64,000 nt of DNA, from contig CAIIXF020000003.1 in the NCBI GenBank assembly GCA_903813345.2, positions 16,444,931 through 16,508,930 on the forward strand, in the 5' to 3' direction. Source of the DNA: Owenia fusiformis. Taxonomy: Eukaryota; Annelida; Polychaeta; Sabellida; Oweniidae. This document shows, piece after piece, positions 201 through 58,097 of the stretch; position 1 is the stretch's first letter, and every line of letters starts with the position of its first letter. The notes below the pieces were generated by a model. The model made no database searches and was not told the DNA's origin. It saw only the letters and a list, made by a program, of their open reading frames with translations. Both the position numbers and the translations under genes were made by a program.

Positions 201-3787
<3,587 letters not shown>

Positions 3788-7097: not shown

Positions 7098-7597
7098 NNN
7101 NNNNNNNNNNNNNNNNNNNNNNNNNNNNNNNNNNNNNNNNNNNNNNNNNNNNNNNNNNNNNNNNNNNNNNNNNNNNNNNNNNNNNNNNNNNNNNNNNNNN
7201 NNNNNNNNNNNNNNNNNNNNNNNNNNNNNNNNNNNNNNNNNNNNNNNNNNNNNNNNNNNNNNNNNNNNNNNNNNNNNNNNNNNNNNNNNNNNNNNNNNNN
7301 NNNNNNNNNNNNNNNNNNNNNNNNNNNNNNNNNNNNNNNNNNNNNNNNNNNNNNNNNNNNNNNNNNNNNNNNNNNNNNNNNNNNNNNNNNNNNNNNNNNN
7401 NNNNNNNNNNNNNNNNNNNNNNNNNNNNNNNNNNNNNNNNNNNNNNNNNNNNNNNNNNNNNNNNNNNNNNNNNNNNNNNNNNNNNNNNNNNNNNNNNNNN
7501 NNNNNNNNNNNNNNNNNNNNNNNNNNNNNNNNNNNNNNNNNNNNNNNNNNNNNNNNNNNNNNNNNNNNNNNNNNNNNNNNNNNNNNNNNNNNNNNNN
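7098..7597. other. Assembly gap, exactly 500 N
   Basis: 500 undetermined bases. The round number, also used at 57598-58097, suggests a placeholder of unknown true size. VIRMA enters from the left and GGA from the right, and both are incomplete at this point. Confidence 0.98.
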
Positions 7598-8089
7598 GAA
7601 AAGGTGTTTAATTGGGTTGCCGTGTGATACAAGTTTATCGAGCATTTTCTTTCTATATATACTGTATTTTTTACATGAACGCATTATGTGTTTTTCGTTT
7701 TCTATTAAATTGCAAACCTCGCAAATTCTTTCATCGATCTTTAATTTTGGGCGTTCGTATCTACCCGTTTCTATTTTTAATTTGTGGTTACTGATACGAA
7801 ACTTTGTTAGACTTCGTCGTAAATGCCCATTTGAAATTGAATCTAAATATGGTTCGAACCTGAAATTGCTTTTAAATATTTTGTATGTATTCAGTTTGCG
7901 ACATTGGTCGGAATTCAATTGATTTCGCCAATAATCTTCAAAACTAATTTTTGATTTACAAACAACTTCGGATGCGTCAATAGTATATTCTTTTACATCT
8001 AAAGTATTATTGATATTGCTGGGAGTATTTCCTGAAAATGGTATATGACAAATAAACTTTCTTTTCTGATAGAGTTTTGAGCTTTTCAA
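7598..8089 (-). mobile_element. LINE-type retrotransposon fragment, C-terminal end of the reverse-transcriptase ORF
   Basis: A minus-strand frame, open from 8089 into the gap, reads ...QCRKLNTYKIFKSNFRFEPY, then GHLRRSLTKFRISNHKLKIE, TGRY, and a Cys-rich end ICEVCNLIENEKHIMRSCKKYSIY. The ETGRY...CxxC...EnEkHxxxxC pattern is the typical tail of many non-LTR retrotransposon polyproteins. The same segment occurs at 27598-27674/31577-31806. There is no reverse-transcriptase core, so it is a fragment. It lies just beyond GGA exon 11. Confidence 0.75.
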
Positions 8090-14300: not shown

Positions 14301-17300
14301 AAAATTGGGCTGTCAAATTCTTTAGGAGCAACACCTAGCAGTATATTTGTACAGTACGATGAAGAAGTAAACATTATTACCTTAGGAGAAACAATTTTGA
14401 TCAGCTCGTTGAGAAATCTGAATTTCCCAATTTCCTGATGAAACAGTCTTCCACAATTCTTCACACATGCTTCCAACGTCTACAAACAAACAGTATCCAT
14501 TATCTGTTTATAATAATTATTTATTTATGTCATTAAATAAAGTTTTGTAAATTAGAAAGAGAACTAATCTGTTGACATGGAGGGAAAAATGTTAAAACCA
14601 TCTCCCCAGAAAAATCCCACTGGAGAAAACACGTTTTATCAAATCTCCAATCATTTTAAACATAACATAACATAACCAAGCGGTACTCTAATATTGTCTC
14701 CTCTGGGGAATTCTACATCAATAGTATGACAAGATTTCATATCACAAATTCTTCCTCAAAAACTGAAGTTCAAGTGTTGTGTAATAAGGATTACCAACCA
14801 AAAACTATTGGCTAGTACTCTATCCTCCAATAAGAACCAATTGTTAAATGTGTTGCTGATTGACTAATTTGATAGTGATTGGTCCAAGAAGTTGAAATTC
14901 AGAACAATAATAGTGTTATCCCAACCAATAATTACAAATTACAATAACAACAAAAAGCAGCCTGTTTGGCTAAAGTTCAAGTCTGACGGGACAGCTAGGG
15001 GAAATATATTAAACCAAAAATTGTTTCATATGAATGAATGAAGGCCATGGATATGGGAGTGAAAGTATTCACAATTTAGACAATGTTATATAAAATTAAC
15101 AAGAAAACCACGACGACATATGTGAACAAAATGTTGGGAACGAAATGGCTAGAAATGTTAAAAGCAATGCAAGATTGTTCAGATACCTTTGCCAGAGATA
15201 TCATTATTACTGTATATCTTTCGAGGAATCAGAATTGAATGTCAGATCAAACCTAGAGAAATTCCTCGATGCATCAAACTAGAAATAAGAATGGGAGATT
15301 TTTCCAAATTGAGTTTTAAGGTCCAATTACTCAGATGCGAGTAGGTAGTTACCAGTTTCGCCACCAGGTGGCTGACTCGGGGGAATTAACATGGCAGGGT
15401 ATTATAAAATTACCTTAAACTTGAATATGCATCAGTTTTAATGGTTACATTTTCATATTACCTTTATGTATCTGATAGTTATACAATTTAAAATATGTCA
15501 GGTAAAAGAAAACCTTATCTGCCCAACACAAGAACAGATATTTCACTTTTTGTGGTTTTACAACATGGGCTCTATGGGGAATCTCCCCGACCTAGAAGTC
15601 ACATTTTCAAAGAAAATTAAATTTTGAAAGTTGATAAACTCTTTTCAAAACCACATTTCTATATGTAATTTTACATGTAGATTCCAAATATGACATCAGT
15701 TTGACTGAATTGTGAATTTTTAATGATGTAAATCAAGATTATTTCTACTCGCATCTGGGATATTAAATAGATTTTTGTCGACCAGTAGAAAATTAGTATT
15801 TCAGCTAGAAAATAAGGAATGTACTAAAAACCCTTCGACCTACGACCCTTCGACCCTACGATTTACTGGGTGTCAAGAATTTTTGGAATATATTTTATTG
15901 AAAAACCCTTCGACCTCTGATTTCCCAGTCCAGTTTACTAAATGATTACGTATAGTTCCAACTTGAGCTCCCTGTGCACGCAAATACGCATTTTACCTGG
16001 TAATTGTCAAGCAAAAATGTTTCAGTAGAAAAATTTCTAAAAAAGATCGTCTACACAGCTAAAATACAAACGCCGAAAAAAAACGTACGCATTTCGTTCG
16101 GACTTTTCACGCGAATTACGTATATGTCACGCATTGCGTTCGAAATTTTTCGTCCCTACCCCCCTAGTATGTTGATACTCATAAGCATGGCACATTGGCC
16201 AGGTGGCCATTTCGAAGTGTCCTCTACAGTATTTTAAAGTCTTATTTTACTTTTTTACTAAAACTTGAAAAGTAGTTGAACGATTTTGAGATCAAAAGTT
16301 CGATGGGATTTGCTCCACCTCGCATTGCTGTTATCTAGTTCTGAAATGTTTCATATCTATGTCTAATAAATATAGTTGTATGTATAGATGTGTGTGTAAT
16401 AACCTTTATGCCCTTAAAATGTATATATTCAGGGGGGGAATTCATGGGTTCAAGTGGACCACTCCATTGGCCAAATATTCTCTCAAAATCAGTACAATTT
16501 TTCACGATTCTGAGCATTTTCAAGATTTCTCAAAAATTATCTGCGTAATCATAATGTCAAAGAACAATCATTTAGTTAAAAAAATAGAAAGGCGATTGCG
16601 GGACTCGGACCCGGGCCTCCCGCGTGCTAAGCGAGCATTCTACCTCTAGACCACCGTTATTTAATGAATGATGGAAGTAATTAAACGCTACTTATTTGAA
16701 TGCTATGATTCGGAAGTGACGTCACATTCTTCATTTAGAAACCTTTCCAAAATCATATAGCCGGCTCCGATCGAAGTCCAGCTTTTAATATCTTTAACTC
16801 TCTTAATGGGACAGATTCTTAAGTTCTATACACAAAGTAATATTTCCAGCAACTTCATATGGACTGAGAAATATCTAGAAGGTCGAAGGGTTTTTATAAA
16901 AATATATTTCAAAAATTCTTGACACGATGTAAGTCGTAGGTCGCAGGGTTGAAGGGTTTTTAGTACATTCCAGAAAATAAACCCAGAAACTCTGGAAGTT
17001 GGTGTATTTATTCAGAATAAACAGTCAAATGACTTTCCTCCAATTTCTTAAATCAGCCGATTACTAGTTAAAGTAAGACAGAAAAATGCACAGATAGCTC
17101 TGATAGCCCCAATGTGGCAAATGGTTCTGCGGTATCCATAATTGTTGGAAATGTTGGTCTGTAGTCCATCTTATTGCCAAACCATATGAAATTACTAATA
17201 TCTAATCTTACAGCCTTAATAAAAGTAAGCTAGATAACACTAAAGGTGTCCAAATTATCAGCCTTAAGTTTGAAACTAGAGGCTTCTGCGACAAATTGGT

Positions 17301-20300: not shown

Positions 20301-23300
20301 GAGAGCTCCTAGACTATATCCTCTAGTCTGAAATTTTTTTGAAATTTGTAATGAAAATATTCAGACTATAACCCACATATGTTAATTTTGGGATTAAAAA
20401 ATATTTGCTTACATAGGAAGTGCCATTAAAAATGGCAGATGGAGTGAATTAATTTGCATATTTGTTAGTTCCCCTAGCTTTATTTCTACTTGACGATATG
20501 CTGTGTTACTTTTTATTGCATTTAATTGTACCTTACTGCTTAAATGAATATAAAATGTTTATTTTTGGGAAATAAATGCTTCCTAGAATTGATTATTTTG
20601 TTCAAAAAAATGATCAAGTCCCACACGACAAAACATAAGCTGACAGACTGACTTTTAGACTAAGAGAGTTCCGCTGCTTTTACAGCAGCCGCAAGTAGTT
20701 CACGATAGTAAACTTCTTTGAGGGAGCCTTGTATCTATGGTTGTCAATTGCTCCTGTAAGTATTCACTTGAATCAATTGATCAAATTTTCCGAAATTTAA
20801 CCTCAAATTCAAACATTATTATTTTTTAAAAATATTCGGAATCATACATGTATTTCTAAACATCCTCTACATATGGTCAAATGAACCTAAAGTTGACTAA
20901 AATCATGTAATGTAACAATTTTGGTAATGAATTCTCGGAATTAGATATGATAATTTTTGGTGTCAGACACATTCCACCTCCTCAACAACTAAACAAACAA
21001 ATGACCATCTGATTGGTTTAAACTCATAAACACATTGTCTAACCAGCAGCAAAACAAACAAGCATGTGTTATTAACTGCCTTTCTCTATCTATTACCCCC
21101 ATAAATGTGGGGTTGATTTTTCAAATCATCCATAAATTATTGTATGCATATATCTTATTTGTTACACTTTTACCATAGATTTTATTAAACACTAGTCGGG
21201 GAATAGAGCTTGCGCTAATGTTGCCTGTACATGAAAACCGACGTTAAATAAATATTATCTTATCTTATCCTTACAACTTCTTGTATATTGAAAACTTGGG
21301 GTCGTAAAACATTGTCAGTAGTTGACACAAAGCTGAATTTTATCTAAATAACCACTAATCCAGCTTATTTACAAACCCAAGATTTCAATTCACAAGTAGT
21401 TGTGGGGGTGATTTGAAATTTGAAATATCAAGCCCACATTTATGGGGGTATTCTCTACTTACGGTCTAAAAACCTTGGTGTTCGACAATCAAAAAATCCA
21501 TTTATTCTCTCATTTGGCCTTATTCTTAAGTTTTCCCTCCATATATAATAAGTTTGGCCGATCCCTTATCTCGCGCCACCTACCTTTTGTCAGTTCATCA
21601 CAGGAAATTGAAGAGAAATCCCCTTCTCTCATATCATGCAAATCATTTCTCTCTTGCATTTGTCTAAATTCCAACATGGAAGAGATTCTAAGAAATTGAC
21701 GTCATTTAGAACAAAATATGGTTTCCCCGAAATGGGAGGAGATTCCATGAATTTTGTCAAGAGTTTGAACTTCTATGAACTCTGACGTCATTCAGACAGA
21801 GGGCAAGAGAAGATTTTCTGAAGAAAATGATGAGTTTCTTTCAGCATTTGGATCCAATTTCGAGTATCACTATTACCATGGGCTTTCAACTAGAGAATTG
21901 AAAGCCCATGCTATTAGTGACTATGGAAAGGAAGCGCATTTGACTTCAAAAAATAAGGTACAGTCTGTTACACTGCTTCAAAGGCAAGCAGTCGAACCTG
22001 AAAAATAAGATATCTATAGACCATTGTGCCATAATATATAGAAAAATATATTCATATTGCACACGAATGATATTTGTATATTTCAGATTATTTAGTGTTT
22101 AGTGCAATAAGCCTGTGCCCTCTTGTAATTTGAGGTCTGTCCGCCATGCTATTTTTTGAGAATTAACATGGTAGAGAAGCATCAAAATATAAGAGGTTAC
22201 AGACTTTATGAGCCAATTTACAAGCAATCCAACATATACAAATGCCATTAGAATCTAGTGTGCAATATGAATATATTTTTCTATATATTATTGCACAATA
22301 TTATTTAGATTTCTTATATTTCAGGTTTAAGTGCTTGCCTTTGAAGCAGTGTAACAGACTGCAAGTACATATGAGTAAGTAGACCTAATGATTCAATTGA
22401 GGCATTTAAACTTTTTCTAAAAATTGATATTTTGACTGACGAACAGGAAGGTTTTTAGAGTATAGATGCATTGGTGTTTTGTGGATCAGTGTTCATAAAA
22501 CAAATTCGATAATCAAAATCAACTGCTGTATCTGGCACATGCTATCTATTGCAAGACTTACGCCTGCCACAACCGTCGCCATGTTATTCAGTGTTTTTTA
22601 AGTTCCGCAAGGATCCTGCCATGACCGTGGTAGTGTTATCGCGTAAGCCTGGTATAACCGTGACAGCCTGGTATAACCGTGACAATGCTGTATTATATTG
22701 CAACGCCTGTCATGACCGTGGAAGTGTTATCGTGGAAGCCTGGAGCGACCGTAGCCTTTATGTTTAATTTCTTTATTGTGGTTAATTAAGCGAATGTTTA
22801 TTATCCTCTTTTAAATATTTTTTTATTTTAGGTCTCCGTTTAAATTGTTTGTTATCGTGGTACGAAGAACTTATTCTCTATAGACTGTTAGTCTCAGCTA
22901 TAGATGATGAATAATTTTAAAATATGCGGGAAATAATGTGAATATAAATGTTAGTGGTAAGTTTGATTTTGACATGATTAAGGTAATTAAACACCATGAT
23001 CATAGTATTAAACTGATTAATTGTATTATTATAATGACGATCACTTAAAATTGTTAAGGATATTCCTGACATTAATGTCATACATATTTACAGTACTTAA
23101 TGCCCTAGTTCTAGTGATTGCAATACATTAAACTTTCATAGTAGGACTAAGCCTAAATTTCTACATACCACCCTCATACCTGGACTTGCAATACTATATT
23201 ACATTATCACGGTCATGCCAGGCATTGCAGTACTATATTACATTGTCACGGTCATACCAGGCTTTGCAATACTATATTACATTGTCACGGTCATGCCAGG

Positions 23301-26300
23301 CCTTGCAACACTATATTACATTGTCACGGTCATACCAGGCCTTGCAGAACTATATTACATTGTCACGGTCATGTCAGGCCTTGCAGTTCTATATTACATT
23401 GTGACGGTCATGCCAGGCTTTGCAATACACATTATCACGGTTATAGCAGTCCTAATCATAAATTTCTACATTACTACTCTTATACCAGGCCTTGCAATAC
23501 TATATTAAATTACCACGGTTATGCCAGGCCTTGCAATACTATATTACATGTCACGGTCATGCCAGTCGTTGCAATCTTTATGTCAACATTACCACGGTCA
23601 TGTCATTCCTCATTGCAATACATCATCAAGGTCATTTCATGCTTCATTGCAATGTATTATCACTGATTGAGTTTAACCCTACTATCACACCAAACTAGTT
23701 TTCACTACGTTCTCGAAAACGGGCTTCAACTGTGTAGGCTACGAGCAGACTGGGCGTAGACCGTTTGGGGTATATTTACAAACGCCATCGAACGTACTCG
23801 AATGGGCAGGTCCTCTAGAACTTAGAACATGCTCAAAATGTTCTCGTGGTCGATACGTTCTACAATTTGAAGTGACAACGTACTAACGACGAGCTGGACG
23901 TACTACGAACGGAACCGTCGTATATCAATCCTACTAGGGACGTTTTAACAACGAGTTGAACTGTCTGAGGACGTATTGAGAACGAGGTTAAACTAATTGC
24001 AAACGGGTTTAAATTGATTAAGAATGTATTTAAGACTGCTTATGAAGGAGTAAGCAAAAATATAGCTATCACACAAAACAAGTTGCCTTCTTCAAAACTT
24101 GTTTTAAACTGTGTGCGAACGGAATGAACGTAACTGCAACTTTCTAAGATCTATTTACGAACTTCATGAACGTTCTCAGACGGGAAGGAGATTTTAGAAT
24201 TTTGAATCGATTCAAAATTCGATGGCGACCATACCGTTCTGTAATCAGGTCATGATGACCTTCTAGACTAAGGGACGCGTTATACCACGTTGCACACCGA
24301 TGTGGTGCGATCTGAACGAACTCCGAATGAGATGGAAGTATTGAAGACTGTTTATGAACGAAGTAGCTAATTATTTTAGACATACTTCCCGATCACAGCC
24401 AGATTGAGCCCGTTTTACGACGTTTTCGTAGGACTGGCAAGAACGGGCCTGAAGAACTAGTTTGGTGTGATATTACATTTATCTGGGAAATATCAAATGG
24501 TGAACGCCATGAATTTACAGAGTTTACTGCATTTAAAGATTACTGGGTTTTAAGTCTACAGATTTAATGTACATTTTTATAGGGTTATGTTATAATCAGA
24601 GTAGAATGCGCCATAGTTTGAGTGAGATTAAGCTTAAACGTTCGTTTCGGTAACAAAATGTCGGAACGTCGAAGATACAATTTTTCTTTATTTTACGCGT
24701 TCAGACGTTGTAAGCAGAATCCCCACGACTTTTTTCTCACAAACGTGTATCAGTATCATATGTTTTAGAAAATGTACATGGTTGCGAAAAAATAGCTCAG
24801 AAGACAACAGAATCGTCGATTTAATTTCCTCACTTAAGTTGCATAAACGGTTTGGGTTAAAAGTGCAGATCTTAACTGTTTTAAAGAAAAATCGTACCTT
24901 CGACGTTCCGACATTTTGTCACCGAAACGAACCAGCGTAATCGAGTGGATCACCAATGTATTATATACTTGAATTATTATGTATATTGTATATGCTATTA
25001 TGGTATGAATAAATAATTATTGCATTACTAATACTTGTTTATGTGTTAAGGAAGGTGAATAGACAAAACAATTAACATAACCTAAATTAGATTTTATTCA
25101 AATTAATAATAATTCATACATGTACTATGCTAAAAAGCTTAAAATTTAAAAATGTTTCTATTGTGTTAAATGTCATACATGTAGAAAAACCTAATTCAAA
25201 CATGTTTCCAAATAAATGTGAATCACTTTATATTTTAACAGTATACTGTTTGACATATTATGAATAATTATTAAAGTGCAATATAATTGTTTCATTTTGT
25301 TTTTATGTCACCACCAAAAGTGGTGACATATTGTTATGGTCTCCGTTTTTTGCGACGGCGGTTGGTGGTTGGAGGTTGGCGTCCGGCGTCCGGCGTCTGT
25401 AACAATTTCTTACAACTTCCTATAACTTAACAAATACTGTTTAGACTGACTTCAATTTTTTTCTAAATCATCTACATGTTCTCATCAGAAGTTCAAATCT
25501 GACTTTAGATTTGACATTTGACCTTCAATGACCTTCTCAAGGTCAAAAAGGTCTTTTTTCAACTTGCTTCACATTGACTAAAAAAATTTTCAAAATCATA
25601 TACATGTTCTCAGAAATTCAAATCTGACTTTAGATTTACTTTAGATTTGACATTTGACCTTCAAATCTGACTTTAGATTTGACATTTGACCCTCAATGAC
25701 CTTCTCAAAGTCAAAAAAGGTCAAAAAGGTCTGTTTTCAACTTGCTTCAAATTGACTAAATTTTTTTTTCAAAATCATCTACGTGTTCTCAGAAATTCAA
25801 ATCTGACTTAAGATTTGACCTTCAATGACCTTCTCAAGGTCAAAAAAGGTCAAAAAGGTCTGTTTTCAACTTGCTTCAAATTGACTAAAAAAAATTTTCA
25901 AAATCATCTACGTGTTCTCAGAAATTCAAATCTGACTTTAGATTTGACTTAAGATTTGACATTTGACTTCAATGACCTTCTCAATGTCAAAAAAGGTCAA
26001 AAAGGTATTTTTTCATCTTGCTTCAAATTGACTAAATTTTTTTTTCAAAATCATCTACATGTTCTCAGAAATTCAAATATGACTTGAGATTTGACTTGAG
26101 ATTTGACATTTGACCTTCAATGACCTTCTTAAGGTCAAAAAAGGTCAAAAAGGTCTTTTTTCAACTTGCTTCAAATTGACTAATTTTTTTCAAAATCATC
26201 TACATGTTCTCAGAAATTCAAATCTGACTTTAGTTTTGACATTTGACCTTCAAATCTGACTTTAGATTTGACCTTTGACCTTCAATGACCTTCTCAAGGT

Positions 26301-29300
26301 CAAAAAAGTCTTTTTTCAACTTGCTTCAAATTGACTAATTTTTTTTTCAAAATCATCTACATGTTCTCAGAAGTTCTTCTTAAGGTCAAAAGGTATTTTC
26401 CAACTTGTTTTAAATTGACCAAATTGTTTTAGGTGGTGACATTTTGTCATGTTAATGCCTTGTCTACATTTACAGTTGTATCGTCGGTTATATGCTGTAC
26501 CAACTAACTATAATTACAATGACTGTGCAAATAGGGTATTCACCCGTTCAAAGACAAAATACTTGTAAAAAGTTATAGTTATATAATTATGGATTGCATG
26601 CAACATAAAACTAAAATGAACTGTGATATATGTAATATTTGATACATATGATAAATATTTTTTAATTCTATTGATGTGAATAGCGCCTCTGAATATTTGT
26701 GTACCTGTGTGTCTAAGTTCTTCATAAGAATTACTCAGATGCGAGTAAGAAGTTACCAGTTTCGCCACCAGGTGGCTGATTCGGGGGAATTAACATGGCA
26801 GGGTATTACAAAATTCCCTTAAACTTATATATGCATCAGGATAGCGGTTCACTTTTCATATTACCTTTATGTATCTGATAGTTATACAAATTAAAATATG
26901 TCCAGTAAAAGAAAATATTATCTGCCCAACACAAGAAAATATATTTCACTTTTTGTGGTTTTACAACATGGGGTCTATGGGGAATCTCCCCGACCTAGAA
27001 GTCACATTTTCAAAGAAAATTAAATTTTCAAAGTTGATAAACTCTTTTGAAAACCACATTTCTAAATGTAATTTTACATGTTGATTCCAAATATGACATC
27101 AGTTTGAATGAATTGTGAATTTTTAATGACGTAAATCAAGATTATTTCTACTCGCATCTGGGATATTGCACACACATAGAAGAAAGTGTATCTCGTCCTC
27201 AACAGTGTGATTGTCACAGTGACATCGACGATCCTGGAGTGGGGTACTAGTATTGCGATAACGTCCAGTTTCAACCTTCAATGGGAGTGCTCCGCCTCCG
27301 TTGGCCAATTGCTTTGGGTTCGCTCCTTGACATGTTAATACAAGTATAATGGGCGGATTCTACAGTGTGTTTTAAACAGTCTATACAGTATGTTCGTAAT
27401 TGTTGCAATTTTAGGCTATTATTATCGTCCCAAAGACTGTTGTGCCATTCGACGTGACCTGCCCGTATACACATTAAATTGATCATACAGCTGCTGAGCT
27501 GGGCGATGTATTAATTCGGGTATGGATCCCTGGTACTTCAATATCGACATATTGACACCAGTATGGATCCTTTAACCAATATAAAATACGAATTACATAT
27601 ATTGAATTCCAACCAATGTCGCAAACTGAATACGTACAAAATATTTAAAAGCAATTTCAGGTTCGAACCATATTCACGGGTAGTATCTAAAGCCCCGCTA
27701 TGATTTAAAAATCGCGAGCAAGTTCCCGCTGAAATCGCGAGGAATAAAAATAAAGCATGGGTTCTTTTTTTGTGTTCTTGAATTGTATGATTTACAAAAC
27801 GTTTTCTTTTAATTTTTCCCAAAGATTACATGGTATTGAGACTAAAAAAGCAACTGCTGGAAAAAATGTATCACGAACGGTCGTTCTGTGGTTCGTTATT
27901 TGTCAATTGAAGAGAGAAAGTATCATTTTGAATCTTTATCTTTATATTTCTATATGTTATTGGTGAAGAACGATGTTGTCCTGTGGTTGAAATAACGATA
28001 GTGATATGAAATAAAGATGTACCGAGTTTCACTTCCTAAAGCTATTTTATCATATCCCTCAAGGCCCTGCTTCTAGCAGGAGCAATTAAGCAAAGATCCC
28101 GCTGAAATCAGGAGGAGGCCCCGCTGAAAACATGAGGAGGTCCCGCTGAAAACAGGAGCAAGTGTCTCTCAAAAATGGAGTGAATCCCGATTATACCCTG
28201 AAAATCTCCCACTTTCGTACCCACCTTGATCCACTATTGTACCCAGTTTGATGAATACATTATTTGTTAATACAATTCTCAATAACAGCAAACACAACTG
28301 TTAATATAGTTCATATTATGATACGTTGTTATGGAAAACTGCAGTATCATATTTCCATGCCATTTTACAGAATACGAAAGATCATCTGAGAAATGTGATG
28401 AGTATTAGATCGGACGAAATGTTAAACATTTAACCTCATTTTCATAATTTGAAGTAATATAAGTTATTGAATGATTTGAAGTGCAGTATAGGATATATTG
28501 TGCTCAAAAAATTCTGCATTGGCACGAGATGAAATCAAGTGGAAATACAGCATATCGAGAGCACAATATATCCTATGTTGCGCTTCAAATCGTTGTATAA
28601 CGTTTTTTATCGTGTGATCTTACTTAGTCCATAAGAAATATTCTGTATTCTCTGTATTTCAACTGTCCCCTCTGTTCCATCTTTGAGTACAAGTCGATAT
28701 TCAGTAAGATACACGAATAAGTGTGCGTTTAGGTCAACCTAAAATGATTTAGTCAGAATAATGTTTATGAATATTATTCCTATATCAATCTCCTGTTGCT
28801 TACTTGCTTGCTCGCTTCCTCCCTTCCTTGCTTCTTTCCTTCCTCGATTCCTACCTTCCTTTCTTCCTCGCCTCTTCTTTTCTTGCTTCCTTCCTTCCTC
28901 GCTTCCTTCCGTCCTTGCATCTTTCCTTCCTCGCTTCCTTCCTACCTTGCTTCCTCGCTTCCTTCCGTCCTTGCATCTTTCCTTCCTCGCTTCCTTCCTT
29001 CCTCGCTTCCTTCCTTCCTCGCTTCCTTCCTTCCTCGCTTCCTTCCTTGCTTTTTTCCTTCCTCGCTCCTTTCTTTCCTCCTTCTTTGTTTCCTCGCTTT
29101 CTTCATTTTCTTCCTCACTTCCTTTCCTCCTTCCTTCCTTGCTTCATTCCTTACTTCCATGCTTCCTCGCTTCCTTCCTTGCTTCCTCGCTTCCTTCTTT
29201 CCTTCCTTCCTCGCTTCCTTCCTTCCTCACTTCCCTCCTTCATTCCTTGCTTCCTTCCTTTCCCGCTTCCTTTTTCCTCCTTCCTTGCATCCTCGATTCC

Positions 29301-32300
29301 TTCAATTTTTCCTCGCGTCCTTCCTTTTTCGCTTCATTCCTTCCTTGCTTCCTCGCTTCCTCCCTCGTTTCCTTCTCTCCTCCTTCCTTGCTTCCTCGCT
29401 TTCTTCTTTCCTTGCTTCCTCGATTCCTTTCTTCCTCACTTGCATCCTCCCTTCCTTGCTTCCTCCCTTCCTTCTTTCCTCCTTCCTTGCTTCCTCGATT
29501 CCTTCATTTTTTCCTCGCGTCCTTCCTTTTTCGCTTCATTCCTTCCTTGCTTCCTCGCTTCCTCCCTCGCTTCCTTCTCTCCTCCTTCCTTGCTTCCTCG
29601 CTTTCTTCTTTCCTTGCTTCCTCGATTCCTTTCTTCCTCACTTGCATCCTCCCTTCCTTGCTTCCTCCCTTCCTTCTTTCCTCCTTCCTTGCTTCTTCAT
29701 TTCGTTCATTCTTTCCTCGCGTTGTTCTTTTGTCGCTTCATTCCCTCCTTCCCTCCTTGCTTCCTTGCTTTCTCGCCTTCTTCCTTCTTTCCTTACTTAC
29801 TTACTTCCTTGCTTTTTTTCCTTCCTTCCTTTCTCGATTCTTTGCTTGCTTCCTTCCTTCCTTGCTTCCTCGTTTCCTTCCTTCCTCGCTTCCTTACTTG
29901 ATAGCTTCCCTGCTCAATTCTTTACTCGCATCGTTCCTTCCTTGCTCCCTCGATTTCCTTGCTTCCTTCCTTCCTTCATTGCTTCTTTCCTTCCCTCCTT
30001 CCTTCCTTTTTTCCTTCCTTGCTTACTTATATTACTCCCACCTTCACTTCCTCGATTTACTTCCTCCATTCCTTCTTTACTTGCTTGCTTACTCAATTAC
30101 TTACTTTGTTGCTTGTTTACTTCCTCGCGTCCTTGCTTGCTTTCTTGATTATTTACATTCTTTCATATGGCAGTGGAAAGACAAATTTTGATGAAAACCT
30201 GCAAACGAACAAACGAACGAGGAAAGAACGCACGGATGGACAGAAAACAGCCGAAAAAACAATGAATGAACAAACGGACGGATAGGCGGCCAAAAGAACG
30301 CATGAAGGAAAGATAGAAGAAAACAATTTACAAAAGATCGAACCCACGCACGCAAGAACGTAGTTACAAACAAACGCACGAATGAACGCACGCACAAAAG
30401 AACACACAAACGAACGCAAAAAGAACGAACAGACGAACGCACGCATGAATGGACTGTTGAACGAAAGCACGCACGGACGAACGGATGCCTAGACGGACGA
30501 ACTCATGAAGGGCAGTCAGACGAAAGCAGGCACAAACGGACGGTCAGACGAACGCATGCGCACACAAACGGACGGACAATCGCACGAACGGATGCACGCA
30601 CGAACGAACGAATGGACGGTCGGACGAACGCTGTCACGAATGCATGGTTGGGCGATGCACGCACGAACGAACAATCGGTCGGATGAACGCACGCATGAAC
30701 GAACGGACCGTCGGACGAACGCACGGTCAGACGAACGCACGCACGAACGAACGGTCGGTCGATTGCACGCACGAATGAACGGTCGGACAAAGAAACCAAG
30801 CAATATACATGTATGTGTCCTCAGAAGTATAATCCTTGGAATAGTGAATTATGTAGAATGTACATTTAACTCCGAAATGTACAAAGTATATTTACATATA
30901 AAAATTTGATCATGCCGCTGACAGATGGATTAGACTGCCTGAAGTTGAAGTAGAAATATTTGTGATGTTGCCATAGAATGATATGTTATGTGAATGTCAT
31001 TAATACGTTATCGTGTACGTTCATATAAAGAAGCTCACTTTATTCATGGAATAATGATGAAGCTTTCCTCGTGATCGAAGCGGGTAGTCGTGAAATTTGC
31101 TCGTGTTTTCAGCGGGGTCTCCTCATGTTTTCAGCGGGCCTCCTCATGATTTCAGCGGGGCCACTTGAACACCTTTAATAATGTATTTCGACCCCCATGG
31201 CAGGTGTCATTGTCCAGTAACTTATCAATACAGACCATCTTGATCCGATATTTATTATAGAGTATGTAAATCGTATTTATTGCCTTTATTTTAACGATAA
31301 AGGTAATATATGAACAGTAAATTATGCAAACGTGCATGTTGACGCCCCTTTCCTTCATGCAAGTAAAAAAAAAAATCATTTTTCATGTCATTTTTTGTCA
31401 AATATATCTGTTTTCAAAGTTTTGCTGGAGTATCAAAGAACGGTAATAAGTATTTTCATCCTTTTGGTTCATTTTCTAAAGTGATACAAATAAACAGGAC
31501 TATGCTCGCGATTTCAGCGGGAACTTGCTCGCGACTTTTCAATCATAGCGGGGCTTTAGATACTACCCGTGATATTTAGTTTCAATTTCAAATGGGCATT
31601 TACGACGAAGTCTAACAAAGTTTCGTATCAGTAACCACAAATTAAAAATAGAAACGGGTAGAAACGAACGCCTAAAATTAAAGATCGATGAAAGTATTTG
31701 CGAGGTGTGCAATTTAATAGAAAACGAAAAACATATAATGCTTTCATGTGAAGAATACACTATATATAAAAAGCAAATGCTCGATAAACTTAAATCAAGA
31801 GATTGAAATTGTAGCAGAATTTATTCATAAATGTAATATAACATACAAACATAGAAGGGTGTGATATATGACATAAACAATGGACGCGTATCACAATCAC
31901 CATTAATGTGCTCATCCATGATACATATTTATTTGTTCATTTATTTACTTATTTATTTATTATTAAGTATTAATTTTGTGTGTTGTTATATATATACTGT
32001 TTTCTGTTGTATTGATATATTGTAAAAGTGTTTACTTTGTGTACACTTAACCCTTTATGGGTATGCATGTTATGACGTTTGCAATAATACATACGAGGGG
32101 TGATCCAAAAGTCTTGGACGCCCCGCTCAAACTTTGCTATTTTCTAATATAATAAGATGAAACTTTCAGATAATAAAGATCAACATGTTAAAAACTTTGT
32201 GTATAAGTTTCATATAAGAAAATAATATATTTTAGCTACTTTTTTAAATATTTTTTGATACTGGGTCCTTGCTACCCGGAACGGTATTTAAATACTGGAA

Positions 32301-35300: not shown

Positions 35301-37008
35301 ATTTTATTTTTCAAAAAAGTGTCATTTATCTGTGGCCAAGGTTAGAAAAATAACAGAGGCACAAAAAACATGCAAAAGAGTACTATTAAAAAATCGAGCA
35401 TATCATATGGTATCCACAAGCATTTCTTTAGGCTAGTGTGCTCGAGATTACTTTTGCACAATACAATAAGAAAATATGAATAAAGAACATTGGTAAATTA
35501 ATAAGCCTTTTTATTCTCACTTTTCAACACTACGCACTGGCGTTTTGGCGTACATTGTTCCTACGCCACTGTTATAAAACATGAAAATCATTCGATATTG
35601 CATTATTTAGAGTTGACCGGTGCACAAATATGTTGCATAATTAATGATAATGTGTGGCATCACCTTTCAACCTATTTAGCACCTCGAAATTTTAAGGACT
35701 AATTATTATTTATTCGCTAAGTAAGATTATTATACTGTAAAGCCTTAGGCCTATATGACCGTGACAATGCTTGCAAAGACTGTCATGACCGTAACAATGC
35801 TATATTATATTGCAAGGCCTGTCATGACCGCGGTAATGTTAAAGCCCCGTATGACCGTGACAATGGTTGCAAGGCCTGCCATGACCGTGGTAATGTTAAG
35901 GCCTGATACGACCGTGACAATGCTTGTAAAGCCTGCCATGACCGTGACAATGCTATATTATATTGCCGTATATATAGTATGACCGTCATAATGATCGAAA
36001 GGCCTGTCATGACCGTGAGAATGTTAAAGCCTGTCATGACCGTGAGAATGTTAAAGCCTGTCATGACCGTGGTAAGGTTAAAGCCTGATATGACCGTGAG
36101 AATGTTAAAGCCTGTCATGACCGTGGTAAGGTTAAAGCCTGATATGACCGTGACAGTAGTTGCAGGGCCTCTCGTGACCGTGGTTGTATTTAAAGTAGCA
36201 TGAACACCGTAATGACAATTTTTCTTCGTGTTTAACTACCTTAAATATGTAAATAAAGACTACTAAAAATGTGTATTAATTTCACAACGAAACCCTAATT
36301 TTTAACTCATCAATAATTTGCGAACAAATATATCTCTACTATCATTTAAGGAGGTTCGATTCGAAAGCACTACTTTCTATAATGATCAATTAATAATAAG
36401 CCTTTATCCATAAAAAATACTAACAGCAACGGGTGAAACATGAAGGTCATAAATGTCATATAGGTTACGGCCGCGCCAGGCTTACACGATTATACTACCA
36501 CGGTCATGACAGGCATTGCAATATAATACAGCATTGTCGCGGTTCTACCAGGCTTTCACGATAACATTACCACGGTCATGGCAGGATCCTTGCGCTACTT
36601 AAAAAACACTAAATAACATGGTGACGGTTACGCCAGGCGTTAGTCTTGCAACAGATAGGGTCTCGTATCTGGGCCTGTGCTAGGAATTTTTTGGATTTGG
36701 AGCTCTCTACGAGGATTTTGCTGCATTTTCTTGTTACATTATTACGTTCATTGAACAAGGAAGGCTAACAAGGAAGTAAACATCAGATTTTCAATTTTTC
36801 TGGAAAAATTTGCAAAAATCTTTCACATTCGGCACCCGATATCTAGAAATTAAAAGCACGTTATGAACAAAGTGTACATCAAGCTTGAATTTTAAAATAA
36901 ACTCTTACAAATGCATTCCTAAAATAGTTTCAATACACCCTTGTTAATCAGAAAAACAAAAAACTTACTCAGCAGTACTTCCAAACTTTCTTCTTCATTG
37001 GAAGCCAT
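8344..37008 (-). CDS. GGA: GGA clathrin adaptor (ADP-ribosylation-factor-binding), 11 exons, 3' end missing
   Basis: Minus-strand exons: 36969-37008, 18568-18728, 14381-14479, 13718-13879, 12443-12511, 11103-11183, 10781-10915, 9985-10069, 9467-9571, 8930-9013, 8344-8459; all phases agree (379 codons). Exon 1 (MASNEEESLEVLL) joins across an 18.2-kb intron to NKATNP. Exons 2-4 form the VHS domain (AVPLLAHKIQSPQE, LEACVKNCGRLFHQEIGKFR, IAEAYQMLKAQGIVK), which in this family binds DxxLL sorting signals. Exons 5-9 give the GAT region (FEDEEKAK, ARLLKSKHPEDLQAANRLIK, LFRLASDTDEKD), which binds ARF. Exon 10 has a clathrin-box-like SLLDLG and an acidic motif DNELSALG; exon 11 is hinge. The C-terminal GAE ear (about 120 residues) is absent before the gap. 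GGAs sort mannose-6-phosphate receptors from the trans-Golgi to endosomes. Confidence 0.95.
8345..8929. other. GGA intron between exons 10 and 11 with flanking positions
   Basis: 8460-8929 is plain AT-rich intron between the donor at 8929-8928 and the acceptor at 8461-8460. No gene or clear repeat was seen. The ORF at 8785-9030 on plus is the shadow of exon 10. Confidence 0.5.
11357..11866. mobile_element. TTAA-flanked MITE in GGA intron
   Basis: TTAA at 11357-11360 and 11863-11866 flank a 502-bp element with ends AGGTGGAGTAGCC and GGCTACTGCACCT (one mismatch in 13). TTAA duplication is typical of piggyBac and Kolobok elements. No transposase ORF, so it is non-autonomous. Confidence 0.65.
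12144..12442. repeat. 27-bp minisatellite touching the GGA exon 5 splice donor
   Basis: About eleven copies of CATATGCCTCCCAAACATTTTGCCTTC (split here: catatgcctcccaaac + attttgccttc), one of them shortened near 12305. On the minus strand it starts at the exon 5 donor (AAG|GTAGGCAAAATG), and the unit contains GGCAAAATG, resembling the exon/intron junction. Because 27 is a multiple of 3 there is no stop for most of the array: read-through would give repeats of KMFGRHMEG. Overlapping ORFs on both strands are artefacts of the array. Confidence 0.9.
13045..13290. repeat. G-rich inverted repeat in GGA intron
   Basis: GGAGGGGGGAGTGGATGGAG at about 13049 recurs inverted at about 13262-13285, and a third shorter copy (CTCCCCCCTCCATCCA) lies near 13588. 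It is a hairpin-forming, G-rich MITE-like segment. The ORF inside (GGGSGWSGGTY...) reads through the repeat and is not treated as a gene. Confidence 0.5.
14245..14275. repeat. Poly-C tract
   Basis: A run of about 14 C followed by TCCCCC in the GGA intron between exons 3 and 4. A simple repeat, with an assembly-length caveat. Confidence 0.8.
15324..15764. mobile_element. CAGATGCGAGTAG MITE, copy 1
   Basis: The terminal repeats CAGATGCGAGTAG (15332-15344) and CTACTCGCATCTG (15745-15757) are perfect; the homology with copy 2 extends outward to AATTACT and GGATATT. About 430 bp, no ORF. Copies 2 and 3 are at 26728-27167 and 63751-64000 (clipped by the window). All three begin GTTACCAG, then CGCCACCAGGTGGCT or a variant. 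Confidence 0.8.
15816..16971. mobile_element. Mutator-like (MULE) non-autonomous element
   Basis: The 1,156-bp element is flanked by identical 9-bp duplications AGAAAATAA (15807-15815 and 16972-16980). Terminal inverted repeats of about 100 bp start GGAATGTACTAAAAACCCTT and contain repeated CCCTTCGACC. Long terminal repeats with 9-bp duplications are the hallmark of the Mutator superfamily. No MULE transposase is readable; the interior includes a tRNA-like sequence (16591-16662). It lies in GGA intron 2. Confidence 0.85.
16591..16662 (-). tRNA. tRNA-like sequence, AGC anticodon on a glycine-type body (pseudogene or SINE head)
   Basis: On minus: GGTGGTCTAGAGGTAGAATG (A box), an anticodon arm CTCGC-TTAGCAC-GCGGG with five pairs and anticodon AGC (Ala), then GGCCCGGGTCCGAGTCCCG (B box). 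The 5' end of the body resembles tRNA-Gly (GGTGGT...GGTAGAATTCTCGC) rather than tRNA-Ala. The 7-bp acceptor stem does not form (ATAACGG against AATCGCC), so it is unlikely to be a functional tRNA. It sits inside the MULE. Confidence 0.6.
18871..19175. mobile_element. CAC-terminal 305-bp MITE with 5-bp target duplication
   Basis: Flanked by TAGAA on both sides (18866-18870 and 19176-19180). Terminal inverted repeats start CACGCGGTAGTATCTCTTCG and run at least 43 bp with one mismatch (through GGGACGTATCGAAACCACTC). No ORF. The first bases align with those of the 3.9-kb element at 27675 (CACGGGTAGTATCT). The CAC end plus a 5-bp duplication fits the Transib/RAG-like superfamily, but the family assignment is inference. 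Confidence 0.8.
19260..19600. repeat. Diverged segment related to the interior of the 18871 element
   Basis: 19440-19500 resembles 19070-19150 in the same orientation (GAGTCCCTCCTTTTAACAGC / AAGTACCTCGTTTTAGCGGC), while 19540-19590 matches 18930-18970 inverted (AATCCTTGATTTTCAAACAT). The mixed orientation suggests a rearranged old copy without recognisable ends. Confidence 0.45.
19885..20251. mobile_element. TTAA-type MITE, degraded copy (inverse of 37561-37936)
   Basis: Reverse complement of the element at 37561: shares TATAGGGGGTGACAAAATTA, CCTACCAATCTATTCCTTAC and CTGATTCTCTCTTTAA. TTAA remains at 20248-20251; the left end has decayed. No coding capacity. Confidence 0.65.
21094..21450. 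mobile_element. TA-flanked MITE with ends TACCCCCATAAATGTGGG, containing a retroelement-like tail
   Basis: Inverted ends TACCCCCATAAATGTGGG (21094) and CCCACATTTATGGGGGTA (21433-21450) with TA at each border. A single related end is at about 4989 (ACCCCATAAATGTGGGGTTA). Inside, 21190-21275 reads like the 3' tail of a SINE or LINE: CCTGTACATGAAAACCGACG, then AAATAAATATTATCTTATCTT, an A/T tail with TTATC units. Confidence 0.6.
21961..22361. repeat. Large palindrome, two arms of about 105 bp
   Basis: 21961-22065 (CAGTCTGTTACACTGCTTCA...AGAAAAATATATTCATATTG) recurs inverted at 22258-22361 with about 90 percent identity; the spacer is 192 bp. It could form a long hairpin. No target duplication was certain. 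The 77-residue ORF at 21775-22008 overlaps one arm and is not supported as a gene. Confidence 0.7.
22540..23650. repeat. Foldback repeat of the TGACCGTG family, copy 3
   Basis: Starts CATGCTATCTATTGCAAGAC at 22541 and runs through one forward array (22610-22750), a unique centre (22780-23140, inverted match to 3236-3425), then an inverted array of about 38-bp units to 23640. The expected right terminal repeat is missing; the TA-flanked element at 23685 begins close by. Confidence 0.75.
23685..24470. mobile_element. TA-flanked DNA element, ends TCACACCAAACTAGTT
   Basis: Inverted ends TCACACCAAACTAGTT (23685) and AACTAGTTTGGTGTGA (24470) with TA on both sides. The 786-bp interior is unusually rich in CpG (many ACGTTC, GAACG and ACGAAC words) compared with the surroundings. 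No transposase could be read. TA duplication suits Tc1/mariner-type elements, but the ends are not diagnostic. Confidence 0.7.
24640..24932. mobile_element. 293-bp MITE, ends GTTCGTTTCGGT
   Basis: About 48-bp inverted ends: GTTCGTTTCGGTAACAAAAT on the left, matched inverted on the right (ACCGAAACGAAC), both followed by GTCGGAACGTCGAAG and ATTTTTCTTTA. No ORF. The target duplication is not obvious. Confidence 0.7.
25301..26439. repeat. TGTCACCACC element with internal tandem array of about 150-bp units
   Basis: The ends are TGTCACCACC (25306) and GGTGGTGACA (26432). Between 25490 and 26420 are repeated units built from TTCAAATCTGACTTTAGATT, TTTGACCTTCAATGACCTTC, TCAAGGTCAAAAA and CAACTTGCTTCAAATTGAC. 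CATTTTGT occurs on both sides (25293-25300 and 26440-26447) and might be an 8-bp duplication. Related solo ends are at about 10700 and 38579. Confidence 0.6.
26728..27167. mobile_element. CAGATGCGAGTAG MITE, copy 2
   Basis: CAGATGCGAGTA at 26736 and TACTCGCATCTG ending at 27160, with nearly the same interior as copy 1. The right side abuts a LINE remnant (27168-27345). Confidence 0.8.
27168..27345 (-). mobile_element. LINE remnant, C-terminal end of a reverse-transcriptase ORF
   Basis: Minus-strand reading: LPLKVETGRYRNTS...DRRCHCDNHTVEDEIHFLLCV, the ETGRY then Cys/His then EDExHFLLxC tail of non-LTR ORFs, distinct in sequence from the fragment at 7598. Its downstream part is cut by the MITE copy 2. 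No RT domain. Confidence 0.6.
27598..27674 (+). mobile_element. LINE fragment, left piece (split by the 3.9-kb element)
   Basis: Plus-strand reading LNSNQCRKLNTYKIFKSNFR then FEPY, the same as the LINE fragment at 7598-8089. It is interrupted at ATATT (27670-27674); the remainder resumes at 31572. Confidence 0.75.
28470..28594. repeat. Hairpin, 36-bp arms, inside the 3.9-kb element
   Basis: 28470-28505 (AATGATTTGAAGTGCAGTAT, then AGGATATATTGTGCTC) pairs with 28559-28594 with about four mismatches; the loop is about 53 nt. Pairing may continue weakly outward. Confidence 0.7.
28796..30150. repeat. Polypyrimidine array of CTTC/CTCG units, 1.35 kb
   Basis: The plus strand is almost entirely C and T, built of TTCCTTCC, CTTCCTCG and TTGCTTCC words, with an internal duplication of about 190 bp (about 29290-29480 and 29500-29690). 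The long ORFs across it (up to 476 residues of Phe-Leu-Pro-Ser) arise because the array has no stop codons; they are not genes. The purine/pyrimidine asymmetry could allow triplex DNA. Confidence 0.9.
30186..30795. repeat. ACGN tetranucleotide array (GAACGCAC/GGACGAAC)
   Basis: About 600 bp of four-base periodic sequence in which ACG is followed by A, C or G (ACGAACGCACGCACGAACGG). It directly follows the pyrimidine array within the same transposon. ORFs on both strands (RTHERT, VRPFVRAC) are artefacts. Confidence 0.88.
31572..31806 (+). mobile_element. LINE fragment, right piece
   Basis: After the duplicated ATATT the frame resumes SISNGHLRRSLTKFRISNHK, then ETGR, ICEVCNLIENEKHIMLSCEE, and stops at 31804-31806. 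It completes the tail seen at 27598 and at 7598-8089. Confidence 0.75.
32094..33191. mobile_element. Mariner-like element with TA duplication
   Basis: Ends CGAGGGGTGATCCAAAAGTC and GACTTTTGGATCACCCCTCG with TA at 32092-32093 and 33192-33193; similarity of the arms continues for about 200 bp (share CCCGGAACGGTATT and GGGTC). This end sequence and a TA target are typical of Tc1/mariner. A minus-strand ORF (32335-32631: SLVKRYENVFKFVENMLKS) could be a decayed transposase C-terminus; this is weak. Confidence 0.75.
33491..33992. mobile_element. TA-flanked 502-bp MITE, ends CAGGGT
   Basis: TA at 33489-33490 and 33993-33994; CAGGGTAACC on the left and GGTGTAACCCTG on the right, with looser pairing inward (AACAAATAGAACCC against GGGTGTCATTTTTG). 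No ORF. Confidence 0.5.
33993..35740. other. GGA intron 1 stretch without recognisable gene
   Basis: AT-rich sequence with a G-run at 34928-34945 (GGGGGTAGGGGGGGGGG). Short minus-strand ORFs at 34160-34378 and 34400-34612 have no recognised family and are not supported as genes. Confidence 0.5.
35745..36665. repeat. Foldback repeat of the TGACCGTG family, copy 4
   Basis: Forward units (gcctgTCATGACCGTGAGAATGttaaa) occupy 35750-36190, an AT-rich centre follows, and the inverted right arm ends CTTGCAACAGATAGGGTCTC near 36664. The left terminal repeat was not found. It lies 300 bp from the GGA first exon. Confidence 0.72.
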
Positions 37009-50500: not shown

Positions 50501-53500
50501 CCAGTAGAAATCATTACCCTCTAGATGAAGTAGTTGTTGGGTCTACCTATATAAGGTATGCACACCCTGTGATTTGAGGTATACTAAATAAGGTACTGTT
50601 AGACACTAAGTATCAGGGCTCTAGTAATACAGAAAATAATACATTTAGGGAGCTGCTCTCACTCAACTTTTTATACTTAATAGTTAAACTAATCAGCACA
50701 CATTGAATAGAGGGAATCTATTTAGAATTAGGTATAGGGTTCCCTAAACCATAAGGATTAAAGTACATCACCCCTCCCCCACCATCACAAGGAATATGGA
50801 TTGTGGCAACACATATTTTTGTGAGATATTTGATTCAATCAACTTTCGTATGAAGGTATAACAAGATTGTTTGAGATCCTAAATGAATAAAAAGAAAAAC
50901 TAAGATATTGTAGATTTTAAAATCCTGTTAAAACTCCCCCACCCATTCAGTCTATTGGATGATAACTTTTTTTCAGATTAGTTGAAAACATGACTTCATT
51001 GACACAATCAATCATACTAATGTAATATTTGACGTTCGTGCTCACTCAATTAATGCACTTCTTTTACAATAAAAGTCTGAGCTTGATCTCCATGTAATTA
51101 TTGCATCGATAACCATAAATTGCTTTTTTGTAATCATGATAGACTAATATCTTATGAGGGATTAATCAAGTAAATCTCTTCACAAAGTCAATATGACCTT
51201 TGTAATCAATTTATCCAATGTTCAGTATGGTATTTCTCAAAACTACAAATTAATAATTTACCATGCTGTAGGCCTAATGAAGAATAGTGACTATCAGACT
51301 TTTACATATTTTTTCTCGATCATAATTTCTAATATTGCAGAGAACTGCAAAAGTTTTCAGGCATTTCAATACAATAAAGAGTGTATTTTTGATCACATGA
51401 CAAAATTTCACCACCTACAATGGCTACAAATGTGTAACAACTGTTACAGATGCCAATATCAACCACCATGCGATTTAGGACTTTAGTCTCAGCAATTACT
51501 GTAAAAAGGTGTCATGACGATGAGATTGGGTTCTTAAATATAAAACAAATTGAATATGAATCTATATATGCATTGTATATGTACAGTATATTATCGATAA
51601 GTTTATTATAAGACTAATAATCTATTGAGATAGGCAGAGTTGGAATAATTTTTGCAAAATTTCAGTCTGCAAGTGCAAGACTGTGCGTAAAATAGACCAA
51701 GTTATTTGGTACAATTTCTTAAATAAAAACCACTCGGGCTACCTTAAATTATTACTACTTATATACAGCTTAATGCATGTAATCCCTAAAAGTCATAGTT
51801 ATTATGATCGATGTTCTAGCATTAATCAGTCAAGAAACACAAATTATAGAACATTAAAAATAATTGCAATCAATGTATACAGAACTCTTTGAATAAAACA
51901 TTATACAAATGTTAAGAGTACTTTTATATGATCTACATTTGAAAAAGGATGACACTACACAAAGATGGGAGCTGTACTAAAGCACATCTAGGTATGAATG
52001 ATGACTTCATAAAAATGAAATAAACATAATACAACTGAATGATAGATTAACAGAATGCTATAAATAAATACAATACAACAACATGTAAAGTGCAGACATG
52101 CTCAAAGAGGAATTGGGGGCTATTTATGAAGATGACCCTGAAATCGAGATTCCTGTCACAACATTAGTACAAGAAAGCGCACTGAAAAGCACAAAACCAG
52201 TGGATAAAATGTCAATTTGGCCATGGGTTTTATATCTAAAATTTGATTATTGTTTTGGGTTTTTGAAAACTTGGTCAATATATATGTACATATATAAATC
52301 ATTTTATATTATATATTGTTTTTCTCGTCTATGCTATGTAGCATGTAAAAGCATTGGCCCAATGAAATTTTACTACACTGGTCAGTACACATGTCTGCAA
52401 TTGAACAAATCTGGAACATAAGCAAAACAAACCAAAATTAGTTGACAAGATGGTGGACATGCATGAAAAGTGCCGAATCATGCGTGGTGACAAGGGATAG
52501 AGTTAGTACTACCTCCAATCTCAGCAGGTTCAAGTGATGCTCCTCGTGATTTGGGAGGGGAGGACTCGGGGCCACAGTAACAATTATCAGAATGGGATGA
52601 ACCACTTGAAGAAACAGAGGAGATTGATTTCGTAGGAGAGGCTGGACAATGGGGAGGGGACTGTACATGAGACTCTATAGTTACTCTTGATACTGTTTCT
52701 CTACTACCAGGGCCACCTGAATCAACGGAGTATGTAATTGTGCCTACATCTGGGTCAAATGTTGTGATAGTACGCCTCTCAGATTTCTGTTGTTCTTGTT
52801 GTTGCCATGACTCAACTTTCCTCTTCGACTCAAGTTCAGCCATTGTAAAGAATTTCTTTTCTTCAACATAAGCATATTTCTTTTTCTTGGCACCGGTATT
52901 TTCATTATCAAGTGAGTCTTCGGTGATTGAAGAAGATGTTAGACTATCGAGGTCAAAGTTGCCTTCAGGGTCCATAAATTTGGTTCTCTTTTGTTGGCTC
53001 ACTCTATGAACACTGTGTATTTCAGTGGTTGTAGTTGATTTGATAGTGCTTTCTGATGGTTCATATCTAGCTTGTTTGAGAAGTGGTTCTTCAGGAGGAG
53101 AATCATATGCAAACTCTGGAGATTCAATTGACATTGCCATTATGTCCCTATGACTTCCCATTGACCGTACAGTATCTTGAGAAAGAGAACTAGCCCATCC
53201 TATTGAATCTATGGACATTTCCATAATATTTTCTTGGGACTTGGGGACAGGTTTTTGTTGAAGATCTTCTAATGAGTCTTTTGATACAGATTTTGGTATT
53301 TTGGATGGTTGTTCATGGAACTCTAAAGAATCTGTAGATTTAATCATAACTTCATCTACATCTGGAACTTTCTGGTCAAGATCTAAAGAATCGGCTGATC
53401 TTTCCATTTCACCTGCTTCATCAGGTACAACCTGTTCTTCATCAATAGCAATTATGTCTTTATCAGCCAATGAATCTTTATCACAATCATCAAGTTTTTG

Positions 53501-57597: not shown

Positions 57598-58097
57598 NNN
57601 NNNNNNNNNNNNNNNNNNNNNNNNNNNNNNNNNNNNNNNNNNNNNNNNNNNNNNNNNNNNNNNNNNNNNNNNNNNNNNNNNNNNNNNNNNNNNNNNNNNN
57701 NNNNNNNNNNNNNNNNNNNNNNNNNNNNNNNNNNNNNNNNNNNNNNNNNNNNNNNNNNNNNNNNNNNNNNNNNNNNNNNNNNNNNNNNNNNNNNNNNNNN
57801 NNNNNNNNNNNNNNNNNNNNNNNNNNNNNNNNNNNNNNNNNNNNNNNNNNNNNNNNNNNNNNNNNNNNNNNNNNNNNNNNNNNNNNNNNNNNNNNNNNNN
57901 NNNNNNNNNNNNNNNNNNNNNNNNNNNNNNNNNNNNNNNNNNNNNNNNNNNNNNNNNNNNNNNNNNNNNNNNNNNNNNNNNNNNNNNNNNNNNNNNNNNN
58001 NNNNNNNNNNNNNNNNNNNNNNNNNNNNNNNNNNNNNNNNNNNNNNNNNNNNNNNNNNNNNNNNNNNNNNNNNNNNNNNNNNNNNNNNNNNNNNNNN
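57598..58097. other. Assembly gap, exactly 500 N
   Basis: Placeholder of the same size as that at 7098. The ankyrin giant exon is still open at its left edge. Confidence 0.98.

Follow-up and report, generated by a model that had tools for sequence, protein, structure and literature searches.

How does a piece of DNA of nearly 4 kb, about half of it simple-sequence arrays, come to interrupt a host repeat when it carries no recognized transposase? This question is raised by a locus in 64,000 nucleotides of Owenia fusiformis (contig CAIIXF020000003.1, positions 16,444,931 to 16,508,930), the stretch that was analyzed in full and is called the window here; positions below are counted from its first letter. 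Having weighed the alternatives, we consider it probable that the element at this locus is a non-autonomous inverted-repeat DNA transposon of the DDE (Asp-Asp-Glu) kind that was moved in trans, probably by cut and paste, with the arrays as passengers.

The evidence for a discrete insertion lies at the borders of the element (Table 1). Its tips are CAC..GTG, with a CACGG start, and its 67-bp inverted ends coincide with an exact break in an otherwise uninterrupted relative of the host repeat located elsewhere in the window. ATATT is single in that relative, where it is read as the reverse complement of 7846-7850, and double around the element; flanks and relative disagree at 16 of 295 positions. 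The relative's alignment ends at 7625, 28 bases past the end of a run of N at 7597, and 7625-7919 is a paralogous empty site rather than an allele. Because inverted ends, a duplication and an empty site are together the expected signature of an insertion-type event, the 3,897-bp piece is, as judged from the sequence, an insertion that arrived as one unit at ATATT and duplicated it. The initial annotation had proposed just such an insertion of a 3.9-kb unit with its empty site in the same window, and the 65/67 agreement of the ends, the paired ATATT and the uninterrupted relative bear this out. Within the 64-kb window, the element is present once. An assembly artifact was rejected in that both N-runs (7098-7597 and 57598-58097) fall outside the element; each is exactly 500 bases long and is probably an assembly gap, and the first adjoins the empty-site relative. 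The host repeat, a putative long interspersed nuclear element (LINE) according to the initial annotation, was without a Pfam match, as were all 9 of the window translations that were searched, the host repeat included. Rfam likewise gave no matches across the window.

Within the element, the ends are organized around a short repeated unit. Exact copies of CCCGCTGAAA occur eight times in the 64 kb, every one of them within the element and reading inward, compared with 0.04 copies expected by shuffling (none of 100 shuffles reached eight). When the surroundings of CCCGCTGAAA were aligned, the unit emerged as CCCGCT-GAAA-(T/A)C-NN-GAG, of which there are five per end. The order of these units is the same at both ends: T1 and T2 in the inverted repeat, which T2 closes, and then a triplet, a1-a2-a3. 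The triplets start 423 bp from the left tip and 412 bp from the right tip, in agreement with the earlier observation of three inward-facing copies per side near 410 to 425 bp from the tips. Left and right triplets match at 92% over 64 bp, a score that none of 200 shuffles reached, and of the six ways to pair a1, a2 and a3 of one side with those of the other, the pairing that keeps the order gives the lowest mismatch count (4, versus 6, 9, 10, 10, and 11). The spacers between inverted repeat and triplet, on the other hand, showed no likeness beyond chance (183 of 200 shuffles equaled or exceeded the score), and the stretches inside the triplets, compared left to right, were also at the shuffle level (186 of 200). 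Because the triplets beat all 200 shuffles and the spacers did not rise above them, the sites are alike and their surroundings are not, which suggests that the ends are in the condition in which conserved binding sites would leave them. The idea that CCCGCTGAAA marks a transposase binding site thereby gains indirect support from one unit family, a matching order and unrelated spacers, and the site itself stays putative.

The same comparison bears on the term composite, which had been applied to the element. A composite transposon would have two copies of one element bracketing the cargo, and the likeness of the end modules here is limited to the inverted repeat and the triplet, with the spacers at the shuffle level (183 of 200). 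Since neither end module is a copy of the other, we rejected this reading and dropped the term.

The cargo consists of two degenerate arrays of period 4, one pyrimidine rich and one of ACGN type, as had been described. In the pyrimidine array, the distance from one G to the next is a multiple of four in 66 of 100 cases, and no uninterrupted pyrimidine run exceeds 39 bases; the ACGN array contains 64 ACG, of which 26 are ACGA, 21 are ACGC, 16 are ACGG, and 1 is ACGT. Self-agreement at lag 4 was 0.62 for the pyrimidine array and 0.58 for the ACGN array, with 0.40 and 0.30, respectively, given by composition alone. The pyrimidine array also contains a 202-bp tandem duplication around 29272-29559 (94% over 287 bp, an identical 100-bp window included). 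Outside the pyrimidine array, no N-free 100-base window (step 10) in the 64 kb is at least 85% pyrimidine or purine, and two of the ACG-rich stretches outside the ACGN array, those at 15780-16250 and 23600-23900, proved on reading not to be ACGN arrays. Flanks and relative are still so similar (16 differences in 295 positions) that arrays with a lag-4 agreement of 0.62 and 0.58 are far more degenerate than point mutation after the insertion allows, which suggests that the arrays predate the insertion. This argument assumes similar substitution rates and arrays that were once regular.

Table 1. Features of the element, its insertion site and its interior (window positions; a dot marks a feature without strand)
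Feature	Position	Strand	Description
Whole element, probable non-autonomous transposon	27675..31571	.	3897 bp; 67-bp inverted ends, ATATT on both sides, uninterrupted relative
Left terminal inverted repeat	27675..27741	+	Starts CACGGGTAGTATC; units T1 + T2; 65/67 vs right end
Right terminal inverted repeat	31505..31571	-	Units T1 + T2; 65/67 vs left end
Left target-site duplication	27670..27674	+	ATATT
Right target-site duplication	31572..31576	+	ATATT
Interrupted host repeat, left part	27601..27674	+	72/74 vs relative
Interrupted host repeat, right part	31577..31797	+	207/221 vs relative
Paralogous empty site	7625..7919	-	Same host repeat without element; one ATATT at 7846-7850
Left spacer, inverted repeat to triplet	27742..28097	.	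Unrelated to right spacer; tested 27742-28090 (349 bp)
Left subterminal triplet a1-a2-a3	28098..28162	+	CCCGCTGAAA at 28098, 28120, 28142; spacing 22, 22
Strong hairpin	28455..28609	.	Arms 76 nt, 75% complementary
Pyrimidine array (TTCC/TTGC/TCGC type)	about 28790..30160	+	About 1.4 kb, period 4, 88% C+T, degenerate
ACGN array	about 30190..30800	+	About 0.6 kb, period 4, degenerate
Right subterminal triplet a1-a2-a3	31096..31159	-	CCCGCTGAAA starts at 31159, 31138, 31116; spacing 21, 22
Right spacer, triplet to inverted repeat	31160..31504	.	Tested 31165-31504 (340 bp)

The two non-array parts of the interior were translated in six frames, with stops as X, and scanned for protein domains; the scan covered these parts and not the arrays. 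No family, and hence no transposase domain, passed its curated cutoff in any of the 12 translations, in line with the earlier statement that the element has no transposase. The sub-threshold matches, CHX17_C (E of 0.085) and Cytochrom_C_asm (E of 0.02), are not transposase families. To the left of the arrays stands a strong hairpin with no obvious flanking duplication by eye; the region 28440-28630 folds as DNA at -36.7 kcal/mol (z of -7.0), which none of 200 shuffles equaled. This hairpin could represent a short palindromic element that is nested in the transposon, or it could belong to the family's interior. Two more palindromes lie in the window, at 21961-22361 (401 bp, 75% self-complementary) and 61149-61301 (153 bp, 73%). 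Comparison of the hairpin with them gave local scores of 16 to 21, which is about the shuffle level of other pairs, this comparison having no control of its own.

From these features we propose the following mechanism. A transposase encoded by an autonomous relative at another place in the genome would dock on five related sites per end: T1 and T2 in the 67-bp inverted repeat and a1 to a3 beginning 412 to 423 bp from the tip. The 21- to 22-bp spacing of a1 to a3 is about two helical turns and would put these sites on one face of the helix. The transposase would then pair the ends, cleave at the CAC tips and link these to target strands with a 5-bp stagger. It is probable that the interior, which would need no function of its own, has lost the transposase gene; aborted gap repair after excision is a possible route of such a loss. 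Degenerate period-4 simple sequence would have grown in the interior or been captured there and would travel as passenger DNA. There is precedent for subterminal docking. As described in PMC2613891, TNPA of En/Spm recognizes subterminal repeats that are cis-determinants of excision and transposition, and subterminal repeats are described in PMC4763223 as modifying hAT transposase activity.

Several points weigh against this account of a transposon with conserved docking sites. It is drawn from a single copy, which does not show conservation across a family, and a case for selection that is built on the two ends of a single element is slender, given that one array could be copied to the other end. 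The order signal is modest, with left a2 one mismatch from right a1 and also one from right a2. T1, the weakest unit of the family, contains no exact copy of CCCGCTGAAA and aligns with the other units only when a gap is allowed for its 8 extra bases. The irregularity of the arrays may be original and not a product of age. Finally, the element is without a transposase and without a superfamily assignment, and one site fits cut-and-paste and copy-paste alike. Alternatively, the triplets might be the remains of once longer inverted repeats of about 480 bp, or the outcome of recent copying of an array from end to end, with the spacers decayed or replaced. The triplets do match in order and at nearly equal distances from the tips (423 and 412 bp), as expected for the inner border of long inverted repeats. 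However, simple decay would strike triplet and spacer alike, whereas the triplet keeps 92% over 64 bp and the spacer is at the shuffle level, and a unit of the triplet type also recurs within the inverted repeat; we therefore regard this origin as unlikely. A role for the arrays themselves, for example as a spacer, as a signal for replication or chromatin, or as DNA that forms triplexes and helps the ends pair, would fit their share of about half of the element, the 39-base pure pyrimidine run and the lack of any other 100-base window at or above 85% pyrimidine or purine in the 64 kb. Yet the arrays are degenerate (0.62 and 0.58 at lag 4) and have grown in part by the 202-bp duplication, as passenger DNA may, and passengers of this kind have published precedents (PMC9659126 and PMC7492417), so that we hold a function for them to be very improbable.

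Which transposase would have moved such an element is a separate matter, and the element is filed in no superfamily. The element departs from EnSpm/CACTA in its CACGG tip in place of CACTA and its 5-bp instead of 3-bp duplication. Helitrons and Helentrons have neither a target-site duplication nor matching inverted ends at their borders, and they were rejected on the 5-bp duplication and the 65/67 inverted ends. An origin in hAT5 or another lineage of the CMCT clade (EnSpm, Mirage, Chapaev, or Plavaka type), with subterminal sites like those of En/Spm or hAT, is a real contender that we place somewhat short of even. According to PMC12730594, hAT families with 5-bp duplications exist (hAT5), and most CMCT lineages have CA..TG tips and 2- to 5-bp duplications; subterminal repeats are described for both hAT and En/Spm (PMC4763223 and PMC2613891). 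The likeness to hAT5 lies in duplication length. However, PMC12730594 takes CAC..GTG tips with 3-bp duplications as EnSpm.

The CAC tips and the 5-bp duplication also recall Transib and RAG-like transposons, and a place in that branch, with movement by such a transposase, would agree with the CAC tips and 5-bp duplications that are reported for protostome RAG-like transposons (PMC7204232) and with 5-bp duplications being called typical of Transibs (PMC4411706). PMC7204232 describes RAG-like transposons with these two features in molluscs and in a nemertean; the non-autonomous copies come from a pearl oyster. The tip itself argues otherwise: it agrees with the protostome consensus CACTWMCAAACKTYKBB at 6 of 17 positions, with AAA at positions 8 to 10 absent, and at only 1 of 8 over positions 4 to 11. 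With the Transib and recombination signal sequence (RSS) heptamers, it agrees at 3 of 7 and 4 of 7 positions, respectively. The Repbase rule for non-autonomous elements, as given in PMC4455052, asks for an equal duplication length and for positions 1 to 11 that align with one mismatch, and by our hand count 4 of these 11 positions fit the RAG-like consensus. In a mollusc-centered survey there was one Transib among 14,275 DDE/D elements (PMC10294476), a rarity that would weigh here only if the host is a mollusc. The element has the duplication length of this branch and lacks its heptamer and A-rich block. A RAG1-like or Transib transposase was also absent from the non-array interior, and a non-autonomous copy would lack one anyway. 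We consider membership in this branch quite unlikely. Distinctly improbable, in our estimation, is the idea that the CACGGGTAG tip, the 5-bp duplication and the five ordered units per end define an unnamed lineage, possibly a Transib/RAG offshoot whose heptamer has changed and whose recognition depends on the distal array of three sites about 0.4 kb inside.

With the element read as a non-autonomous inverted-repeat transposon, its anatomy is of a known type, since simple-sequence and satellite passengers in non-autonomous transposons are already published. Miniature inverted-repeat transposable elements (MITEs) with hitchhiking tandem repeats, such as (GTCY)n of Lepidoptera and Xstir and miDNA4 of Xenopus, also combine inverted repeats, no transposase and a carried array (PMC9659126). 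Compared by description with the MITEs of that report, which are about 400 bp, our element is larger and stands apart by its two kinds of array, its five-unit ends and its 5-bp duplication. The non-autonomous Cg_HINE Helentrons of Crassostrea gigas are likewise modular carriers of tandem repeats; their arrays are described as eroded and mostly of 4 nucleotides, and some carry two (PMC7492417). Unlike these rolling-circle elements, ours is bounded by clear inverted ends and flanked by a target-site duplication. The cargo had been called unusual, a description that holds only in part, since microsatellite and satellite passengers are reported in these two sources. RAG-like (RAGL) and Transib elements have CAC tips and 5-bp duplications in common with ours (PMC7204232 and PMC4411706) and differ from it in the tip after CAC and the AAA block, and the non-array interior contains no RAG1-like remnant. 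En/Spm (CACTA) and hAT elements likewise have a repeated motif inside each end, which is bound by protein or thought to aid the transposase (PMC2613891 and PMC4763223), but their duplications are described as 3 bp (the CACTA element) or usually 8 bp (hAT; PMC12730594) and their motifs are other ones. The element's own difference from them is the triplet 412 to 423 bp from the tip. The new finding is that both ends carry five related units in matching order, of which two belong to the inverted repeat and three lie 412 to 423 bp inside.

The DNA collections that we scanned for these ends were viral (IMG/VR) or prokaryotic. In IMG/VR, the 24-base tip had no matches, nor had the patterns for the subterminal unit and the inner inverted repeat; the 17-base unit was found in 3 contigs, the two-unit array pattern in 4, and the 18-base tip in 1. 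In the prokaryote collection, the two-unit pattern occurred in 55 stretches, with about 3 expected by chance in 257 Gb, and short tandem repeats may be the source of this excess. BLASTN of the element against the 63 loci from these scans yielded matches that were confined to the searched motif or extended it by a few bases, the exception being L021, the only locus with an E value below 0.001 (best, 1e-5). Matches covered 17 to 20 bases at L001, L002, L003, and L008, and L055, L039, L019, L037, L034, and L022 appeared only at E values of 0.97 to 3.5. Nine loci including L021 were inspected: the motif repeats in L010, L011, L022, L025, L051, and L052, and L016 and L045 have two units only. L021 (CAJXNI010000015.1) contains six CCCGCTGAAA at 22- and 43-bp spacing. 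Since it is a Bacteroidetes contig selected by motif, with bacterial-type open frames and no match to the inverted ends, we treated it as unrelated. Its array of 21- to 22-bp units at 780-1000, in which CCCCGCTGAAAATCACGGAGAG is mixed with units of the CCCCGCAAAAACCAC type, stands to the left of an open frame that by eye resembles a tyrosine recombinase. Ends with multiple repeats occur in some insertion sequences, and the array recalls them. In the portions of the literature that were covered, four tip and unit strings did not appear, and no element with the same ends was met.

Other repeats share the window with the element. A dispersed tandem-repeat family around GCCTGGCATGACCGTGACAATG occurs in both orientations at 1560-3637, 22535-23659, and 35747-36664. 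A dispersed 440-bp repeat is found at 15325-15764, 26729-27167, and 63745-64000 (two copies are 93% identical, and the third matches at about 82%), and one of its copies lies about 500 bp to the left of the element. An array of a 147-bp tandem repeat occupies 25456-26376, with related sequence at 63612-63740 near the right end of the window. On the minus strand, 52481-57595 holds an open frame of 1,705 codons; its product would be acidic and rich in Ser and Glu, shows EFExLE-type repeats on visual inspection, and had no Pfam match at an E value of 0.01.

Taken together, these results make the locus a clear single-locus case of a transposon that has no recognized transposase and carries two kilobases of simple sequence, with an order of events in which the arrays would have come first and the insertion later. 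The five-unit ends yield a sharp prediction of where the transposase would dock. If it is true that these ends lead to an enzyme of the Transib/RAG type, they would represent a new end design for that branch.

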